Shown: piece by piece, positions 8,700 through 39,709 of the stretch | Layout of the letters: every line of letters starts with the position of its first letter | Numbering within the stretch: position 1 is the stretch's first letter | Assembly: GCF_000518705.1 (NCBI RefSeq) | Contig: NZ_JAEC01000008.1 | Location: 62,001-126,000, forward strand | DNA from: Shewanella colwelliana ATCC 39565 | GTDB taxonomy: Bacteria > Pseudomonadota > Gammaproteobacteria > Enterobacterales > Shewanellaceae | Direction: 5' to 3' | Length of the DNA: 64,000 nt | Position numbers and translations under genes: made by a program | Notes under the pieces: generated by a model | The model's database searches: none | What the model saw: only the letters and a program-made list of their open reading frames with translations | Told to the model about the DNA's origin: nothing

Positions 8700-9131
8700 A
8701 TGAAAACCCTTATCAGCTTAGTGCTAACCGCTTTTCTTTTTGTAATGTCAGCGCCGATGGCGTTTGCACACCAGCATGCTCATGGTGAGCAAGCTGTACA
8801 AAACTATGATTGCCCTATGCATCCTGAAGTGACTGGCAAAAAAGGGGATACCTGCCCTAAATGTGGCATGAACCTCGAGGTCGCTAAAGGTTCCGCTGAC
8901 ACTAAAAACTGCCCGCATGGTAAGCACGCAGCAGATGCCAATGTGCATCATGAAAAAAGCAAGTGTGATAACTGTCCAAAGCATCAAAAACACCACAAAG
9001 TAACGGCCAAATATGATTGCCCTATGCACCCTGAAGTGACGGGGAGTAAAGGCGATACTTGCCCTAAATGTGGCATGAATTTGGAACCAGTAAAAACTGC
9101 TAGCAGCCCTGCTCAGCACCAACATCACTAG
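8700..9131 (+). CDS. secreted protein with two heavy-metal-binding (HMBD) domains
   Basis: 143 residues. A signal peptide ends at AFA (about 23). HMBD repeats lie at 36-60 and 105-129; both begin YDCPMHPEVTG and end CPKCGMNLE. Between them is a Cys/His-rich linker (about 71-98) with CPHGKH and CDNCPKH. HMBD modules bind Cu(I)/Ag(I) or related soft metals and are normally found at the N-terminus of CusB or of copper P-type ATPases. Here two are carried by a free periplasmic protein directly upstream of cusB, so a role as metal sponge or donor to the pump is likely (inference). Confidence 0.85.
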   Translation: MKTLISLVLTAFLFVMSAPMAFAHQHAHGEQAVQNYDCPMHPEVTGKKGDTCPKCGMNLEVAKGSADTKNCPHGKHAADANVHHEKSKCDNCPKHQKHHKVTAKYDCPMHPEVTGSKGDTCPKCGMNLEPVKTASSPAQHQHH

Positions 9132-29276: not shown

Positions 29277-29897
29277 TTACTCAGCAATTGGGTTGATGGT
29301 TAGTGTCAAGTCTGCCTGTGCAATCGATAACGCGACCTTAGCCATCCAAAGTGACTGCTGGTCATAGCGGATCTCAATCTGTGGCGTATCACTGCCGTTA
29401 GCATATAGGCTTCTGCATTGCACTGCATCACAGTCGGCTGAGCGTAATTGTCCACCATGTAAATTGCGATTTACATCTTCGATAGGCCAGTATATCAATT
29501 GCAGTAAGCCAAGGAGATATTCTGCCTTAAATTGATCGCCCAGCAAGATACTTTGCTGGCTGCTGACGCTATGCCCATCATAGGTGACGGTAAATAACGC
29601 CTGCCCTAGTGGCGCGAGGCCAACCAAGGTCAACTGTTGCGGCACAATCTCAAGCTGGCTGAGTAGTTGATGTCTTTCGCCTTGCACTGCAATGCTGACC
29701 TGTTGTGTTTGACTTTGGTTAACATCGCTTTGCAGTGGTGCTAAGCAGTAGTCCACCCCACGAACTAAGGACATACAAGTGTTTCGATCCAATTGTTGAG
29801 CACAACCGCTTAATAGCAGCAGCCACATGGCGAATAACAAACCAATGCGTGGTCGCACCCGCTTAAGTGAAGTGATAAACCGCCTTGTCATTTGCAT
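29277..29897 (-). CDS. apeN: DUF3261 lipoprotein (ApeN position)
   Basis: 206 residues. After a basic start, the hydrophobic stretch MWLLLLSGC gives a lipobox. The body is beta-rich, with a hydrophobic LLGLLQLIYWP segment as in DUF3261 proteins, which are regular members of APE clusters. A role in moving or anchoring the pigment at the outer membrane is inferred. Starts at 29897 or 29891 overlap the end of the flavoprotein gene. The symbol follows cluster order. Confidence 0.78.
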   Translation of the reverse strand: MQMTRRFITSLKRVRPRIGLLFAMWLLLLSGCAQQLDRNTCMSLVRGVDYCLAPLQSDVNQSQTQQVSIAVQGERHQLLSQLEIVPQQLTLVGLAPLGQALFTVTYDGHSVSSQQSILLGDQFKAEYLLGLLQLIYWPIEDVNRNLHGGQLRSADCDAVQCRSLYANGSDTPQIEIRYDQQSLWMAKVALSIAQADLTLTINPIAE

Positions 29898-31150
29898 AGC
29901 TCAACGATCATATTGAGGCGTCGCTCCGACTCGGTGACAAACGGATTATTTTGATCCCAAGCGTAGCCCGCTAGAATTGAGCAGATCATCTGCTTAATTT
30001 TCGGGTTAGGCGCTTCGAAAAAGATCACATCTTGAAAGCGGCCATCATACCAAGCTTGTACGTAGGTTCTAAAGGTATCTACTCCGAGCATCAGTGGCGC
30101 TGCGTAGTCGACTTGCCAATCGACCTCCTGGCCATTGAGTTGTTTAACGACACATTTAGCAGCCATTGAGGCTGATTGCATCGCTATGGTTACGCCAGAG
30201 GAGAATACGGGGTCTAAAAACTCGCCAGCATTGCCCAGCAAGGCAAATTTGTTGGTGGCCAAGGTGCTTACGTTGGCAGAGTAACCTTCAAGGCGAGCGC
30301 AGGGGCGAACTACCTTTGCTTTAGCCAATAACTGCTTGAGTCTAGGCTCTTCATTAACGAGTCGCATCAGCACCGATTCAAGATCGTCACCAATATCCCC
30401 AAGGAGGTGGGGCTCTCCCACGACACCTAACGAGCAACGGCCATTGCTAAAGGGGATGAGCCAATACCAAATATCTCGGTTATCGGGGTGAACACTAATC
30501 AGGATCTTGTTGCGATCGAACTGGTAATCTGCCAGTTCAATTTCATCGATATGATCGTCGATATGGGTGAAAATTGCAGTACGGCTAGGTAGATCTGAGG
30601 GACGCTCCAAGTCGAGTAGTCGAGGTAAGACGCGGCCAAAGCCACTGGCATCGAGTAGATAGCGTGCCTGCACTTGATACGGTATGCCTTGCTTATCGAC
30701 AATGGATAGCAGAGGATCGGCCGATAGATCAATGGCCTCCACCGTATCGCCAAAGCGGATCTCTACACCTTGCTCTATGGCGGTGTCGGCAAGCAGTTTA
30801 TCAAAGCTGCCACGCTCTACCTGAAAGGTGGTGCCGGGACCTGGAGTAAACTTATCGGTAAAATCAAAATGTGTGCTGCGTCCATTAGCATTAAAGGCTG
30901 CGCCATTTTTAAATTGAAACCCTGCATTATTTACCGCGTCGAGCATATTGGCTTCGTCAAGCATTTGCATACAGCATGGCAGCAGGCTTTCCCCAATTGA
31001 AAAGCGCGGAAACGCTTGCTTTTCAAGTACAAGAACCTTTTTTCCTTGCTGGTGCAATAGGCTTGCCGCAACACTTCCTGATGGTCCAGCTCCTATGATG
31101 ACAACATCATATTGGGCAATTGCATGAGCTGGTGATTGGGCTGATTCCAT
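29888..31150 (-). CDS. halogenase-like FAD-dependent oxidoreductase
   Basis: 420 residues from the ATG at 31150, which shares one base with the exporter stop. FAD-binding GAGPSG at 20-25. The flavin-dependent halogenase signature WxWxIP appears as WYWLIP at 228-233, and FLDPVFSSG at 311-319 matches the second motif seen in CmlS-type halogenases. Relatives without halogenase activity (reductases, hydroxylases) share parts of this pattern. In this cluster it could halogenate the aryl head, as in brominated xanthomonadins, or hydroxylate or desaturate the chain. The motifs are seen; the activity is inferred. Confidence 0.85.
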   Translation of the reverse strand: MESAQSPAHAIAQYDVVIIGAGPSGSVAASLLHQQGKKVLVLEKQAFPRFSIGESLLPCCMQMLDEANMLDAVNNAGFQFKNGAAFNANGRSTHFDFTDKFTPGPGTTFQVERGSFDKLLADTAIEQGVEIRFGDTVEAIDLSADPLLSIVDKQGIPYQVQARYLLDASGFGRVLPRLLDLERPSDLPSRTAIFTHIDDHIDEIELADYQFDRNKILISVHPDNRDIWYWLIPFSNGRCSLGVVGEPHLLGDIGDDLESVLMRLVNEEPRLKQLLAKAKVVRPCARLEGYSANVSTLATNKFALLGNAGEFLDPVFSSGVTIAMQSASMAAKCVVKQLNGQEVDWQVDYAAPLMLGVDTFRTYVQAWYDGRFQDVIFFEAPNPKIKQMICSILAGYAWDQNNPFVTESERRLNMIVELCK

Positions 31151-33546
31151 CACTTGTGGGTCCTTATAAAATTATGTACGAAGGGGGATAGCAGGAAGGT
31201 ACATCCGATACCTAAGAGCAAGGTTAAACCAAAATAGTGAATAGCGGGTGTTTGGCTAAAGGCCAATAGGCCAAATGCCAAGAGTGTCGAACAGGCTGAC
31301 ATAAACACCGCCATCATCACGGCTCGCCCCTGTTTTGCCTCAGCGAAAAACAGGCTGTAATCAACCCCAATGCCAAAGACTAGGATTAGTGCAAGTGCAT
31401 GAAATAGGGTGAGCCCCGAGCCGAAAAGCCCTAATAACCCGAGGGTTAGCAGCGCAGAGGTAGCGGGTACAGCAGTGACATACAAGGCGAGCCTGACGCC
31501 AAATCGCATTGAAAAAATGCCCCAGGCGATCAGCAGTGACAATAGCAGTAACCACAGCGTGAGCGAGCGGTATTTGGCCATGACATGAGAAATATCGGCG
31601 ACTTTATCTACCAGTTGTACACTGGATGTCGTCGCAAGCGCCTGCTGAAGTGTGTCAATGTTGCTGATCCCCCCTAGCAGCACGATAGCGCCAAAGTCGC
31701 GCTCTTGATTGGATGCAGGTAACCATAAAGGAGAAAAGAGTTGCCCTGCGGGGCTATTAAAAAATGCCTCTGGCGTAATGGTTAGTGCCGCCGCCTGCTG
31801 GTATTGCTGACGCAAATCACTGGCGAGTTCTGGCGCTAATCCCATCTTTGCAAGAATGTGGTCGATATTGTGGTAAATCTCACCCTGCAACCGATAGTTA
31901 GTGGCTTGAGTTGTTTGGCTTGGTAGGTAGTTTGCCAAGTTGATAGCATTACCAATCACACCATCTTGTGTCAGTTTGTTTAGTGTTGGCTTGATCGCTT
32001 CAAGCTGTTGCAGCAGCGCTTGGGCGTTAGGCGCACGTACTAAGATAAATTGGTTATCGGTGCCGCCACTGAGTAATAAGCGTAGTTGCGCCTCTTGGCT
32101 GACCACGTCATTGGGACTTTGTTGCAGATTACGAATATCGTCATCCGTCTGCAACTGGCTTAACCCTAGCGCAGTGACTAGCGCGATACCAAGCAAGCCT
32201 GTCCGCCACCATGAGGTATTACCTTGCTGACTGAGTACAGCAATCTTATCGAGATACTGTTGTGCTAAGCGCAGCGGTAGAGGTCGATGAGGCAATCGGC
32301 TATTGGCAATGAAGGGATAGGCCAACACTAAGGTGATATAAGCACCAATAAGGCCAGCCGCGCAGAAGATAGCTACTTGCTGCATTCCCGGAAAGGGGGT
32401 CATACCTATTGCGCTGTAGGCGAGCACTGTAGTGATTAACGCTAACGTCGCTGCGGGGAATACCTTAGTCACTGCCACTGACGCAGAGCTATCAGCCTGT
32501 TCCAAGCGTTCGCAATAAAAATGAAAACTAAAGTCGATGGCAATACCGATAAGACTGGTTCCAAAGACTAAGGTCAGCAAGTGTAATTCACCAAATAGAC
32601 TCAATGTCGCGACAACGGCAAACAGTAAACTTGTGGCTATGGTTAGGCTGGCTATTAGCAGTGGCATCATAGAGCGAAATGCCCACCAGACCAATGCAAT
32701 CACACCAATAAGTGAGGCCAGACCGAGAGATGACACCTCTTTTTTGGCTTGTAAGGTGGCGGCGCTGGCATGGAACAGTGCACCAGCTTTAAGTACCTTA
32801 AGCTCAACACCTGTAGGTAACTGCGCTCGCACAACTGCAATAGATTCGGTGAGTTTATTGATTTGTTGCTGCTGGCTTTGGGGGTTAAATGCGCTGCCAA
32901 CCCCTTTTGCCATAACGATGGCTGAATAATATGATTGCCCCAAGTCATTGTGCGTTGTAGAGACTAATATTCCTTGGGCAACTTTGACTTTTTGCGTCGG
33001 TGCCATAGCCTTTAACGTATCGGGATACAGCAATAGCGGGTCTTGGCTGATCAGCTCGCTGTTGGCGTAGCCAAAAGCATTGTATAGCTGAGCTAAAGCA
33101 TTAGCCTCCAACCGCGCTAATTGTTTGTTCTCTATTAGAGTCTGCTGGTTTGCCGTGAGTAAACTAAAGCGGTGAGGAAAGTAAAACTGATTTAGTGCGC
33201 GAACGCTATCAATGTCGCCACTTTTGACATCGGTAAAAACGTTTTTATCTGTGCGTAACTGAGTTAGTAGCAGCTGGGCTGAGTCAATGGCTTGCGCCTC
33301 ACTGCTGGCCTGCAGCGCGATGTAGACCCTATCAGCCAGTTGGCTTTCTACGCGTTCAAGTGCTACTTGAGTCAATGCTTCCTCATGTATCTCAGGTAGC
33401 ATGGCCAAAATATCGCTTTGAATTTTTGCGCCTTGGTTAAGTTGATAGGCCCCAAGCATGAAAGCGCAAAATACTAACGCAAACCAAATCATGGCTTTGC
33501 GTTTAATTGAGCCTTGGCCTGCTGGATTTGAACCTTTAATCATCAT
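31150..33546 (-). CDS. apeM: MMPL/RND-type exporter ApeM
   Basis: 798 residues with about 12 transmembrane helices in two halves, each preceded by a large periplasmic loop. SLIGIAIDFSFHFYCE in the first half and LVFGIGVDYSLFFAEAKQGR in the second are the paired MMPL TM4-type motifs with their conserved Asp. It probably moves the aryl polyene lipid out of the inner membrane, with the LolA-like protein as carrier. Its ATG overlaps the stop of apeL. Confidence 0.88.
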   Translation of the reverse strand: MMIKGSNPAGQGSIKRKAMIWFALVFCAFMLGAYQLNQGAKIQSDILAMLPEIHEEALTQVALERVESQLADRVYIALQASSEAQAIDSAQLLLTQLRTDKNVFTDVKSGDIDSVRALNQFYFPHRFSLLTANQQTLIENKQLARLEANALAQLYNAFGYANSELISQDPLLLYPDTLKAMAPTQKVKVAQGILVSTTHNDLGQSYYSAIVMAKGVGSAFNPQSQQQQINKLTESIAVVRAQLPTGVELKVLKAGALFHASAATLQAKKEVSSLGLASLIGVIALVWWAFRSMMPLLIASLTIATSLLFAVVATLSLFGELHLLTLVFGTSLIGIAIDFSFHFYCERLEQADSSASVAVTKVFPAATLALITTVLAYSAIGMTPFPGMQQVAIFCAAGLIGAYITLVLAYPFIANSRLPHRPLPLRLAQQYLDKIAVLSQQGNTSWWRTGLLGIALVTALGLSQLQTDDDIRNLQQSPNDVVSQEAQLRLLLSGGTDNQFILVRAPNAQALLQQLEAIKPTLNKLTQDGVIGNAINLANYLPSQTTQATNYRLQGEIYHNIDHILAKMGLAPELASDLRQQYQQAAALTITPEAFFNSPAGQLFSPLWLPASNQERDFGAIVLLGGISNIDTLQQALATTSSVQLVDKVADISHVMAKYRSLTLWLLLLSLLIAWGIFSMRFGVRLALYVTAVPATSALLTLGLLGLFGSGLTLFHALALILVFGIGVDYSLFFAEAKQGRAVMMAVFMSACSTLLAFGLLAFSQTPAIHYFGLTLLLGIGCTFLLSPFVHNFIRTHK

Positions 33547-34689: not shown

Positions 34690-36252
34690 TTAATGACACA
34701 CTTCCCAGTGGGCTTGCTGTATCTTCTCTACGGTTTGTCTTAAGACTTGTTCAAGTGGTCGGTCTTCTGTGAGCAGCTCAAAATCAGCGCTAACCTGAGT
34801 CAAGGTCTTAGCCACTGACGGGGTGAGTGATGCTTGGCATAGCTCCCCTTGGCTGACGCGTAGATGAATGCCTTGGGTCATTGCTAGCAGCGCAGCGGCG
34901 GCAACCTGTTCAGTCAACTGCAGCACACGCATGCAGTCTCTAGCGGCAATAGTGCCCATGCTGACCTTATCTTGGTTGTGACACTCTGTAGAGCGTGAAA
35001 ATACGCTGGCGGGCATGGTCTGTTTAAGTGCTTCAGCTGTCCACGCTGATACGCCAATTTGTACGGCTTTAAAACCGTGGTTAATGGCGCGGCGTTCACC
35101 TGTGGCGCCAGAAAGGTTGGCAGGTAGACCATTATTAAATTTAGGGTCCATGACCAATGCCATCTGACGGTCGATAAGGTCGGCGATATTGGCAACACAA
35201 TTTTTCATTGAGTCCATGACAAAGGCAATATGTCCGCCATAGAAGTGACCCCCATGAAGAATATGTTCGCCTTCGGCATCGACAATTGGGTTGTCATTGG
35301 CGCTGTTGAGTTCTGTTTCGATAAACTGACGCATAAATGGTAAGGCATCTTGCAGTACACCAATAATGTGCGGTGCACAGCGAATTGAGTATCTATCTTG
35401 CAGACGATCAGAGTTTCTTGGGTGTTCATGATGATTAAGGTCTTCACGGATCCAAGCGGCTATCTGGTTCTGTCCTGGGTGTGGTTTAGCCGCAAAGAGA
35501 ATGTCATCAAAGTGGTTGGAATTCCCCTTAAGCGTTAATGAAGCCATGGCTGTGATACGACTTGCCATTTTGGCCATGTATTGAGCTCTATCGTAGGCAA
35601 GGCATGCAAGGGCGGTCATTACGGCAGTGCCGTTCATTAGTGCCAATCCCTCTTTAGGTCTGAGTTTAAGCGGTATGATACCGAGTTCGCTGTATACCTC
35701 TGCGGTGCTTTGACGCTGCCCTTGGTAGATCACATCACGTTCACCGACGAGTACGGCGGCTAGGTAGGAAAGTGGCGTCAGATCGCCGCTGGCACCCACA
35801 GACCCCTCTTCAGGGATCACAGGAATGATATTCAAGTTAAGCAGTGTTTCAATACGCTGAAGTAGTTCATAGCTTACGCCAGATTTACCGACTGCAAGCG
35901 AACTAAGGCGACAGGCCATGACCGCTCTAGCCTGCATCGGAGATAGGATTTCGCCGAGCCCGCAGCCATGAAAACGTGACAGATGCAGAGGGAGTTCGTG
36001 AACTAAATCAAGCCCAACCGTGACAGTACATGAGTCGCCATAGCCTGTGGTAACGCCATACACTACGCCCTCTTCAGCGAGTAAGCTGTCGATAAATCGC
36101 GCGCCTTTCTGGATATATTCTTGATATGCAGGGCTGACTTGCAGTTGCGCTTTCGCGCCTTTTGCCACCGCAACAACCTCTTCAAGGGTTAGCGAGCGTT
36201 GGCCAAATTTAACAATCTCTTCTGTATGAGAAGGTGTAATCGTTTGAGTCAT
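34690..36252 (-). CDS. MIO-type aromatic amino acid ammonia-lyase (tyrosine/histidine ammonia-lyase family)
   Basis: 520 residues. The self-formed MIO cofactor motif Ala-Ser-Gly is at 154-156 in EEGSVGASGDLTPLS; the catalytic Tyr is probably in VVYGVTTGYG (about 65). The substrate-selectivity pair reads Phe-His (94-95 in HLSRFHGCG), nearer to the Tyr-His of bacterial tyrosine ammonia-lyase than to Ser-His of histidine lyases. This suggests tyrosine to 4-coumarate, which the ApeH ligase could load as starter. The ATG directly abuts the acyltransferase stop, and SGD in place of NGD after the motif is typical of HAL/TAL. Confidence 0.9.
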   Translation of the reverse strand: MTQTITPSHTEEIVKFGQRSLTLEEVVAVAKGAKAQLQVSPAYQEYIQKGARFIDSLLAEEGVVYGVTTGYGDSCTVTVGLDLVHELPLHLSRFHGCGLGEILSPMQARAVMACRLSSLAVGKSGVSYELLQRIETLLNLNIIPVIPEEGSVGASGDLTPLSYLAAVLVGERDVIYQGQRQSTAEVYSELGIIPLKLRPKEGLALMNGTAVMTALACLAYDRAQYMAKMASRITAMASLTLKGNSNHFDDILFAAKPHPGQNQIAAWIREDLNHHEHPRNSDRLQDRYSIRCAPHIIGVLQDALPFMRQFIETELNSANDNPIVDAEGEHILHGGHFYGGHIAFVMDSMKNCVANIADLIDRQMALVMDPKFNNGLPANLSGATGERRAINHGFKAVQIGVSAWTAEALKQTMPASVFSRSTECHNQDKVSMGTIAARDCMRVLQLTEQVAAAALLAMTQGIHLRVSQGELCQASLTPSVAKTLTQVSADFELLTEDRPLEQVLRQTVEKIQQAHWEVCH

Positions 36253-37137
36253 CTATCTGTCTATCCTATTAGTATGCTTTGGGGCAGACGTTGCTGCTGC
36301 GCGCTGGATCTCTTCATCTTTGCGCCAAAAATCGAAAAAGTTAAACCATTGCAATGGTTCACGCCGTGCGTAGTATTCAAGTCGAGCACTATAGCGGTTA
36401 ACCGCGGCTTCTAAGCGTTCCATCCTGCCAGTGCGAGGCCCTTTGAGCGTATCTGAAAAATGCTCTAGGTGAACGTGATAACGCCCCTGTTCTCGTAGGC
36501 AAAACATTAAATAAACTGGGCAATCCAGCAGGCCAGCTAGAATAAATGGACCTTGTGGGAAGGGCGCGGCTTTACCCATAAATGGCGCATAGATCACCCG
36601 ACCTTCGCTGTTCGACGAGGTGCGATCCCCTGCGATGACCACCAGTTCGCCTTGCTCAATTTTCTCTTGCAGCAACATCGAAGTACTCGGTCCCAATTCG
36701 GTGACCTGAATCAGGTTCAGGGCGCTGTCGGGATTGAGTTGTTTCAGTACTCGATTAAAGTTCTCGGCGTTTTGGGTCAGCACCATTACATTGACTTTCA
36801 CTTTGCGCTGATGGATTGAGATAGCCCGGCATAGCTCCAAATTACCTAAATGTGACACCAATAATACGGCGCCTTGACCTTGTGCTAAGGGTTCGGCAAG
36901 AGCTTCGCGGTTGGGGAAGTCGACTTGGCTGAGCTTAATGCGATCGCACCACGCATCGATACGATCAAGTGCCGCATTACCGAATGCAATAAAGTGTTTG
37001 AGGCTATGACGCCAACCTATGGTGCCCTGTAGCTGTGGGTGGTCGGGGTCAAAACTTTGCACCTGATTAAGAAAATCGAGCGAGGCTTGCCTTGCATTAC
37101 GCCCCGTTAGGAAAAAGTAGCCAATCACTGGATACAT
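36253..37137 (-). CDS. apeJ: LpxL/COG4261-type acyltransferase, C-terminal half of broken ApeJ
   Basis: The first in-frame ATG (37137) gives 294 residues, but conserved family sequence starts earlier. The 30 codons between 37227 and 37138 encode SSIGERGSYWGIKLLASSY and more, matching the normal N-terminus of these lipid-A-type acyltransferases, with no ATG, GTG or TTG among them. That block is in the same frame as the glycosyltransferase and is cut off by a single TAG. The remaining domain carries VSHLGNLE (His-X4-Glu/Asp-type acyltransferase motif) and AGDRTSSNSEGRVI. The likely role is acylating the lipid or sugar anchor of the aryl polyene. From ATG 37137 the protein would lack its first conserved helix. 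Confidence 0.8.
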   Translation of the reverse strand: MYPVIGYFFLTGRNARQASLDFLNQVQSFDPDHPQLQGTIGWRHSLKHFIAFGNAALDRIDAWCDRIKLSQVDFPNREALAEPLAQGQGAVLLVSHLGNLELCRAISIHQRKVKVNVMVLTQNAENFNRVLKQLNPDSALNLIQVTELGPSTSMLLQEKIEQGELVVIAGDRTSSNSEGRVIYAPFMGKAAPFPQGPFILAGLLDCPVYLMFCLREQGRYHVHLEHFSDTLKGPRTGRMERLEAAVNRYSARLEYYARREPLQWFNFFDFWRKDEEIQRAAATSAPKHTNRIDR

Positions 37138-37227
37138 GATGGCACGGCATAGCCAATGGCCACCAATTTTATAACTACTGGCAAGGAGCTTAATGCCCCA
37201 ATAGCTGCCTCGTTCACCGATGCTCGA

Positions 37228-37230
37228 CTA
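37228..37230 (-). other. in-frame amber codon splitting the glycosyltransferase/acyltransferase gene
   Basis: TAG at 37230-37228 joins two halves in the same frame (37977 to 36253 = 575 codons). The residues around it read ...ASTH-stop-SSIGERGS; homologous acyltransferase domains have His-Trp at this point (HW..I.ERGS), so TGG to TAG is the simplest explanation. See findings. Confidence 0.85.
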
Positions 37231-37977
37231 ATGTGTACTGGCATCTGTTTGCTTGTTACGTGTTAACAACTGCGGCAAACGGCGTAACATGCCAAAAAAT
37301 AGCTTAGTGTGCATGGCTGAGATCCGCACATTGTCTTTCACTCCTTGAAAGTGGCTGGTGCCATCTTCTGGATAGATAACCCGAGTGGGGAGATGTTTGA
37401 CACTGACGCCCTGCCAAAAGAGTTTGACTAAGATTTCAATATCGAAATCCATACGTTCGCCTAACGCTTGGCTTAAGAAAAGCTGTTCTGTTGCGGCCAA
37501 TGGATAGATTCGGAAGCCGCACATAGAGTCTTTGATGTCGAAACTTAAGGTTTCTATCCATACCCAAAAGTGGGTGATATATCTGCCGTAAAGCCTGCCT
37601 TTGGGGACTGACTCATCATATTGCGGCAGACCTGATATCAAGGCTTTGGGATGCGCTTGTGCCTCGGCGATCATAGCGGGGATATCATTAAGATCGTGCT
37701 GACCATCGGCATCCACTTGTAGTGCATGGCTAAACCCGTCGGCAAAGGCTGCCCGTAATCCACTAGTCACCGCAGCCCCTTTGCCGCGATTAAAGGGGTG
37801 ATGAATTAATTTGACCCAAGGATACTGTTTAGCAAGCTCGCACAGCAGGTGACGCGTGTCATCATTGCTGCCATCGTTGATTAAATAACAAGTCAGATTT
37901 AGCGGTGCTAACTGCGCCAGCGTCATTTTAATCGCTTGCTGATGATTGTAGTTCGGGATCACTAACGCCAGTTGCAT
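37228..37977 (-). CDS. apeJ: family 2 glycosyltransferase, N-terminal half of broken ApeJ
   Basis: 249 residues. GT-A fold: IPNYNHQQAI at the N-terminus, INDGSNDDTRHLL, the metal-binding DXD in LQVDADGQHD, and GRYITHFWVWIETLSF. Dolichol-phosphate-mannose-synthase-like, so it probably transfers a sugar to a lipid or to the polyene anchor. The reading frame continues past its TAG stop into the acyltransferase domain, so the ancestral protein was one chain of 574 residues, as in the fused glycosyltransferase/acyltransferase of other APE clusters (recollection). It starts three bases after apeI. Confidence 0.88.
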   Translation of the reverse strand: MQLALVIPNYNHQQAIKMTLAQLAPLNLTCYLINDGSNDDTRHLLCELAKQYPWVKLIHHPFNRGKGAAVTSGLRAAFADGFSHALQVDADGQHDLNDIPAMIAEAQAHPKALISGLPQYDESVPKGRLYGRYITHFWVWIETLSFDIKDSMCGFRIYPLAATEQLFLSQALGERMDFDIEILVKLFWQGVSVKHLPTRVIYPEDGTSHFQGVKDNVRISAMHTKLFFGMLRRLPQLLTRNKQTDASTH

Positions 37978-38352: not shown

Positions 38353-39709
38353 GTTCAAATAACTCGAGTATATGGCTAAGAAGGTACTTACCTTGGTTAT
38401 TACTGGGTAGCGCGGCAGGGTAACGCCAGCGCTTTGGCAGAGTAACGCGTTCAAACTGTGTAAGCAGATGGGCTTTAAGCTGATTATTAATTGCCAATTT
38501 ACCCTCTGCTTCTAGCTGTTCTTGTCCTAATGGTGACAAGACGATGGCCGCGCCCAGCAGAGTACGCGGTTGTTCCAGTACAGCGAGTACTGCTTCAGCG
38601 ACAAAGGGATGGGTAACCAGCAGGTCTTCCATTTGAGCTAATGAAAGTCGTTTTTCCTCAATTTTCACAATCCTATCGAGTCGGCCAAGTAACTGAAATT
38701 CACCATCGCCTGTGAGGCTAATTTTATCATCACACTTTAACCATTGGCTGGTGTCTAAATAGGGAGACTTGAGCAGTAAGGCACCGTCTTGCTGATCTTG
38801 ATGAATTTGATGTGATGCAAAAGTACGCCAAGCCTGATTTTCGACACTCTGGCGACGATAAGCGATACCACCCGTTTCCGTACTGCCATACACCTCAATG
38901 GGAGGCTTGCCGTAGCAGTGCGAGATATCATTGGCCGCTTGAAAGCTTAATGGGCCACCTGAACTGAACACTAAACTGGGCGAACGCATCTGCGGCTGGT
39001 GCTCTAGCGCATCGGGCAAGCGCGACAACTGAGCCGGACTGCTGATTAGGCACAGATTAGGAAACAGGTTGGTGTAATAGGTTAAGGTTTCAGGGTATTC
39101 AACCAGATCGCTTAAAAACGGTCGACTGGCCGCTAATGGCCATAGGATTTTGAACAATAAGCCATAGATGTGTTGATGTGACACGGTTGCTATCACGCTG
39201 CACTGTGGCAGATGGGCGGCAAAAGTGCTTTCCAGCACAGTCACTTCTGCATCGAGCTGAGCGATGGTTTTTTCGATGGCCTTGGGCTGACCGCTACTGC
39301 CAGAGGTAAACAGTAATAAGCTGCCAAGTTGTTCGCTTTGGGGCCAAGGTAATGTGCTATTAGCGAGCTCTTTTTTGAGCGGAAAAAAGGCTTTGCCTTC
39401 ACACAGTGGCATGTCAGAAATAACACCGTCGAATTCATGGGTCAACAGACTCAATGATCCCGATTGGGTATTGGCTGGCAAAATGAGTTGTTTATCCGCC
39501 AGTAATCCCGCGCATAAACCCACTGCAAACAGATCGCTGCTGTCACAGGCTAATAACCAGCGCTTGGCTGGTGTTTGACTTAGCTGTAGGTGTAACGCGG
39601 CGACTTGTGCTGTGAAGGCACTGCCAGTCACAATATCGTGATGATTAAAGCTAATCAGCTGTTGGCTTGATGGCCCTTTGGCGAGCCAGTTCTTAAGTAA
39701 CCCTGTCAT
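38345..39709 (-). CDS. apeH: AMP-dependent acyl-ACP ligase ApeH
   Basis: 454 residues from the ATG at 39709 (ATGA overlap with the apeG stop). ANL-superfamily motifs: the P-loop LLFTSGSSGQPKAIEKT, YGSTETGGIAYR, and LTGDGEFQLLGRLDRIVKIEEKR. It activates an aryl acid and loads it on an ACP to prime the polyene. Here the aryl acid could be 4-coumarate from the lyase (inference). Confidence 0.9.
   Translation of the reverse strand: MTGLLKNWLAKGPSSQQLISFNHHDIVTGSAFTAQVAALHLQLSQTPAKRWLLACDSSDLFAVGLCAGLLADKQLILPANTQSGSLSLLTHEFDGVISDMPLCEGKAFFPLKKELANSTLPWPQSEQLGSLLLFTSGSSGQPKAIEKTIAQLDAEVTVLESTFAAHLPQCSVIATVSHQHIYGLLFKILWPLAASRPFLSDLVEYPETLTYYTNLFPNLCLISSPAQLSRLPDALEHQPQMRSPSLVFSSGGPLSFQAANDISHCYGKPPIEVYGSTETGGIAYRRQSVENQAWRTFASHQIHQDQQDGALLLKSPYLDTSQWLKCDDKISLTGDGEFQLLGRLDRIVKIEEKRLSLAQMEDLLVTHPFVAEAVLAVLEQPRTLLGAAIVLSPLGQEQLEAEGKLAINNQLKAHLLTQFERVTLPKRWRYPAALPSNNQGKYLLSHILELFEHD

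Follow-up and report, generated by a model that had tools for sequence, protein, structure and literature searches.

In the draft genome of Shewanella colwelliana ATCC 39565, the apeJ gene of an aryl polyene cluster is cut by one in-frame TAG codon. We wanted to establish whether this codon is a lesion, an error of the assembly or part of a working gene arrangement. The analysis was performed on 64,000 nucleotides of contig NZ_JAEC01000008.1 (positions 62,001 to 126,000), further called the window; all coordinates given below are positions within it. We consider it likely, with a probability of about 0.68, that the TAG arose very recently by a nonsense mutation, which replaced tryptophan at codon 250 in the conserved fused apeJ of the Shewanella aryl polyene cluster. 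This reading is based on the stop itself, its position in the linker, the absence of a restart codon and the intact conservation on either side. It rests on the assembly of one strain, in which a base-call error would look identical. The stop is real as an observation on the sequence and most likely ordinary in kind, involving no new biological mechanism.

The interrupted frame and its two halves

Translation of the minus strand from 37977 to 36253 gave one frame of 575 codons including both stops, and the sole internal stop is codon 250, a TAG at 37230-37228. The initial annotation had placed this TAG in the frame of the acyltransferase, directly after a histidine and 30 codons ahead of the first ATG, with no ATG, GTG or TTG between. 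Translation confirmed the common frame and the preceding residue (His249), and a codon listing confirmed the 30 codons. The first ATG (37137-37135) is codon 281. The open stretch after the TAG (37138..37227, minus strand) encodes the conserved N-terminus of the acyltransferase and the bulk of predicted helix 258-291. ATC and ATT are the only start-like codons within it, and no Shine-Dalgarno sequence was seen by eye in front of them.

The half upstream of the stop (37228..37977, minus strand) encodes a GT2 glycosyltransferase of 249 aa which ends in the TAG; it scored 76.1 bits for Glycos_transf_2 (PF00535) in Pfam, where the cut-off is 23.3. The half downstream (36253..37227, minus strand) encodes an LpxM/PatA-like acyltransferase of 324 codons plus a terminal TAG, in the frame of the glycosyltransferase, and matched Lip_A_acyltrans (PF03279) with 44.4 bits against a cut-off of 22.3. 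The longest ORF found mechanically within this half (36253..37137, minus strand) has 294 aa, starts with the ATG of codon 281 and begins inside the first helix. His376 and Glu381 of the H-x4-E motif, which we take to be catalytic in Lip_A_acyltrans, were invariant in an alignment of 50 sequences. Both Pfam domains above their cut-offs and the location in an aryl polyene cluster agree with an ApeJ-type gene; the presence of both domains in one uninterrupted frame does not hold here, due to the TAG at codon 250. The genome (draft, 4.58 Mb, 58 contigs) contains a single copy of apeJ.

We modelled ApeJ in AlphaFold with the TAG read as Trp (mean pLDDT 86.5, pTM 0.61). Codon 250 was placed in a low-confidence linker (243-256), flanked by helix 212-243 of the glycosyltransferase and by helix 258-291, the first of the acyltransferase. 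The glycosyltransferase half resembled DPMS (5mlz; Z 24.3, rmsd 2.2, 219 aligned), and also ArnC and GtrB. The acyltransferase half resembled LpxM (5kn7; Z 21.0, rmsd 3.7, 250 aligned) and PatA (5f2z; Z 21.1, rmsd 3.4, 244 aligned); the VIA-align match list was filled mostly by the glycosyltransferase half, and further families may be similar. LpxM, PatA and DPMS share their folds with the two halves at 14-23% identity but, unlike ApeJ, are not fused together, and the substrates of these proteins, as well as those of ArnC and GtrB, presumably differ from those of ApeJ. A start at codon 281 would cut helix 258-291 and lose the invariant Glu255, Gly261 and Gly273. Since such a restart would damage the first helix, the model points to the glycosyltransferase alone as the most likely product.

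The site in relatives and natural two-gene versions

The alignment of this site with other apeJ genes, which the initial annotation had proposed, was performed by tblastn on a set of 130 loci that included that of the window. Codon 250 was TGG in 126 loci, TAG in the window alone and another codon in three. These three loci (L047, L105 and L110), considered as exceptions without Trp, proved to be gap placements: a Trp stands nearby and was aligned by MAFFT. Trp is therefore present at the site in 129 of 129 relative loci, a set in which the same species is at times duplicated from two collections, and none of the 129 has a stop there. The codon 250 column was also Trp throughout the 50-sequence alignment, down to 46% identity; the window row was translated there with TAG as W, which leaves 49 independent rows. 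Trp250 and Glu255 were invariant in this alignment and His249 nearly so. We conclude that the TAG stands in place of the expected TGG, as had been supposed. The His-Trp...ERGS beginning of the domain could be refined to HWS-x3-ERGS in Shewanella, and the TAG falls on its Trp.

Of 129 Shewanella genomes, counting that of the window, 122 had a match to apeJ. According to our hand count, six of these 122 matches were weak (best E above 1e-9), which leaves 116 genomes with a substantial relative. The fused frame was uninterrupted in 111 of the 116. The other five comprise two genomes with frameshifts (G004 and G066), one in which contig ends cut the gene (G091), one with a two-gene version (G057) and that of the window, which the same count shows as the single nonsense case among the 116. 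In three genomes (G012, G075 and G076) longer linkers broke the match into two pieces; these genomes have frames open over 630-637 aa and are counted among the 111. A TAA flagged as a lesion in G008 was the natural end of the gene, and this genome was counted as intact. The nearest relatives were 82-84% identical to the window in ApeJ protein. Fusion in most of the genus, together with the conserved Trp, supports the earlier view that a single TAG splits a normally fused gene.

Some of these exceptions deserve separate mention. The frameshifts in G004 (L116) and G066 (Shewanella sp. KJ10-1; L117/L055) are located in the acyltransferase half, within the final third of the gene. All three Shewanella lesions, that of the window included, thus sit in the acyltransferase half; with n = 3 this could be due to chance or to assembly errors. 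The apeJ of G057 (L115) is diverged (48-54% identity, where most congeners show 65-84% and the fused genes of G019 and G104 show 50-51%), and it is possible that its two-gene version is a horizontal replacement.

In an order-wide search of 295 genomes, 136 matched at 1e-20, and a number of them carry the two halves as separate genes. We chose 20 distinct two-gene loci for inspection, a subset of all. One Moritella locus (L063) was dropped from the set, as it repeats L235 on a shared contig, and four loci picked for their flagged stops (L238-L240 and L111) proved to be fused. An open frame of 11,075 aa in G371 was an artefact of a run of N. The two-gene versions, found in Moritella and other genera (L063, L068 and L221-L237), resemble the window in having a separate glycosyltransferase and a separate acyltransferase frame. 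Free-standing glycosyltransferases in the 20 inspected loci had 243-254 aa, a range which includes the 249 aa of the window. The difference lies in the acyltransferase: all 20 loci have a start codon upstream of its conserved Trp, whereas the window has none and carries a stop in place of this very Trp. In 18 of the 20 the start was an ATG 3-5 codons ahead of the Trp; the remaining two had a GTG 4 codons ahead (L086) and an ATG 32 codons ahead (L115). Fused and two-gene forms are both natural, and every separate acyltransferase inspected begins ahead of the Trp lost in the window.

The initial annotation had stated that homologues with two separate genes and their own start codons at this place would speak against a lesion. 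Such homologues do exist, in Moritella, in other genera and in G057, but the starts they use are absent here. We therefore rejected the known two-gene layout as an explanation and regard the window as carrying a lesion, since it has no start codon ahead of the conserved Trp position.

In the Moritella group (L235-L237) the stop of the glycosyltransferase lies just upstream of the acyltransferase and in frame with it. An ATG is present in this group (L063 included) five codons ahead of the conserved Trp. Fission in the Moritella group may have proceeded through an in-frame stop together with a start codon.

Age of the stop and competing explanations

We wanted to see how long the acyltransferase half could have been silent. 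The dN/dS ratio on the window branch was uninformative, as synonymous sites were saturated in the comparison with each of the seven near relatives used. For this reason we used invariant columns instead. These were taken from 62 other Shewanella homologues, obtained from 71 full open loci after deduplication, with partial loci L055, L115, L116 and L117 dropped. The window kept 96 of 96 invariant columns in the glycosyltransferase half and 110 of 110 in the acyltransferase half, and codon 250 was the sole break. This test is blunt, because most of the other 62 homologues also break none; zero broken columns indicate normal constraint and no more. A random substitution in the acyltransferase has a chance of approximately 29-31% of altering an invariant column or creating a stop. 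If the acyltransferase has been neutral since the TAG arose, zero breaks limit the silent time to at most about 8-9 substitutions in 909 bases (0.91-0.97%, 95%); in the gene tree, the branch leading to the window has a length of 0.28 substitutions per site. An old pseudogene was rejected, as there is no further stop, no frameshift and no change in any of the 110 invariant acyltransferase columns. The undecayed state of this half indicates that the TAG arose very late, is an error or does not silence it. Such preservation is equally expected from a base-call error and from an acyltransferase which is still translated.

Among the meanings which the initial annotation had offered, a recent nonsense mutation fits best, a sequencing error keeps some weight, and amber suppression, readthrough and reinitiation are disfavoured. 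If the stop were a sequencing or consensus error, the true genome would have an intact fused apeJ. This is unlikely, though it deserves serious thought: only one base is concerned, the assembly is a draft in 58 contigs, the cluster has no other lesion and the supposedly dead half is perfectly conserved. We compared the genes of the window with ORFs of at least 100 aa from G074 and G058, at a minimum of 55% identity. The TAG of apeJ was the sole true internal stop among the genes compared (42 against G074 and 46 against G058). Three other loci were flagged with internal stops, which proved to lie upstream of the evident start, and the gene at 8700-9128 aligned as two overlapping pieces in a single frame without a stop. 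With no other internal stop, this part of the assembly shows no sign of frequent errors, which argues for a real mutation. Single-base substitution errors are moreover generally uncommon in a deep short-read consensus, which would weigh against an error if the genome was sequenced in this way.

The open and fully conserved acyltransferase half would also be expected if a fraction of ribosomes read the TAG as an amino acid, so that the cell makes glycosyltransferase alone and a little fused protein. We regard this as very improbable. An amber suppressor tRNA, which had been suggested as something to look for, was not found in the draft genome: none of 60 tRNA matches, obtained in a family search and all passed to ARAGORN, had a CTA anticodon. 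That search scored 150 of 246 first-look candidates, and some expected tRNA genes were missing from its matches; a draft genome may also lack a gene which the strain has. A CTA anticodon with a T-loop pattern occurred at 22 places in the whole draft, and ARAGORN found a CTA tRNA at none of them; only three held tRNA genes, two for tRNA-Glu (TTC) and one for tRNA-Arg (TCT). The DNA patterns were rarer than their reversed controls (118 vs 259, among the matches listed, and 22 vs 45). RF1 is intact. Of the 59 mechanical ORFs in the window that reach 100 aa, 13 end in TAG, the two of apeJ among them. The absence of any stop at this site in the relatives also speaks against a used readthrough signal. 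The base following the TAG is T; in E. coli reporters, readthrough was lower with a T after the stop, and weaker at TAG than at TGA (PMC11126739). Efficient reading of TAG would, in addition, carry on from the acyltransferase into the lyase gene that follows in frame. Little credence can be given to the idea that the TAG is a maintained control point, at which low readthrough sets the ratio of glycosyltransferase to fused enzyme. The same holds for its softer version, in which the TAG is the first step of a fission on a route like that of Moritella, before a start codon has arisen.

Separate chains evidently work, as natural two-gene versions exist in the order and L235-L237 have their stop in the same frame. 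The acyltransferase of the window might then be started on its own, by reinitiation at the ATG at 37137 or at an ATC or ATT codon. We find this hard to credit: all the inspected two-gene acyltransferases begin upstream of the conserved Trp, but the first usual start here lies 90 bases past the stop, within predicted helix 258-291 and without a visible Shine-Dalgarno sequence.

Cluster context and expected consequences

Pfam matches of the neighbouring genes included ApeI-like (PF22818), ApeP-like (PF22817), two carrier proteins, AMP-binding, ketosynthases, a reductase, a thioesterase, LolA and DUF3261. The genes at the ApeG and ApeM positions had no Pfam match. Gene order follows that of the E. 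coli aryl polyene cluster in Table 1 of PMC8253772, in which c1194 of E. coli CFT073 is ApeJ, a glycosyltransferase/acyltransferase. The E. coli ApeJ shares both domains with the window, with an ApeI-type dehydratase gene before it and thioesterase and LolA-like genes after it. In the window, the chain is cut by the TAG at the domain boundary and apeJ is separated from the thioesterase gene by a lyase gene. The other genes of the cluster were uninterrupted in comparison with three relatives, once start-site artefacts had been resolved. No paper on this Shewanella gene stood among those listed by searches of one literature collection, judged by title and start of abstract.

Upstream of apeJ lies the ApeI-type dehydratase gene (PF22818; 37981..38352, minus strand), which encodes 123 aa when read from the start that relatives use; its mechanical ORF begins at a TTG at 38454. 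Downstream lies an aromatic amino acid lyase gene (PF00221; 34690..36252, minus strand), whose ATG abuts the terminal TAG of apeJ in the same frame. This abutment (36252-36255) was also present in relatives L212, L213 and L216 and suggests, from gene layout, tight translational coupling. Table 1 of PMC8253772 lists no such lyase gene for E. coli; the aromatic starter may here come from deamination of an amino acid. A gene at 29888-31153, inside the cluster, encodes a flavin-dependent enzyme with Trp_halogenase and FAD_binding_3 matches, and is likewise absent from that table.

If the nonsense mutation is real, ribosomes would halt at the TAG and release a complete glycosyltransferase of natural length, predicted to be active. 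The acyltransferase would be unmade, or present as a rare product missing the greater part of its first helix. Of the steps that build the lipid anchor, the sugar step would proceed and the acylation would fail, leaving the pigment partly or wrongly anchored. The initial annotation had suggested a change in the lipid anchor, and by analogy with E. coli genetics (PMC8253772) this is plausible. An apeJ deletion strain of E. coli partly kept pigmentation and made late intermediates, which are presumed to be impaired in attachment (PMC8253772). Losing the acyltransferase half alone should be no worse than this deletion, and the loss is probably tolerable, since E. coli without apeJ is still partly pigmented.

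A correct annotation should mark apeJ as interrupted in this strain, and chemists who screen it should expect atypical aryl polyene lipids. A real mutation would also serve as a minor natural experiment on the need for each half of ApeJ, as it should remove the acyltransferase and spare the glycosyltransferase. Beyond this strain the finding has little significance.

As a baseline, we searched E. coli genomes and found apeJ matches in 807 of 5426; in 805 genomes the match covered 80% of the query or more. Among 60 records sampled at even steps, 59 covered the query fully and one held 7%; this listing is blind to point nonsense mutations and yields no estimate of their rate. One E. coli record (NZ_CP076274.1, 3380264-3380383) has only 120 bases that match the end of apeJ, under annotations of a hypothetical protein and CdiA. 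This stretch is possibly a remnant of cluster loss next to a contact-inhibition locus.
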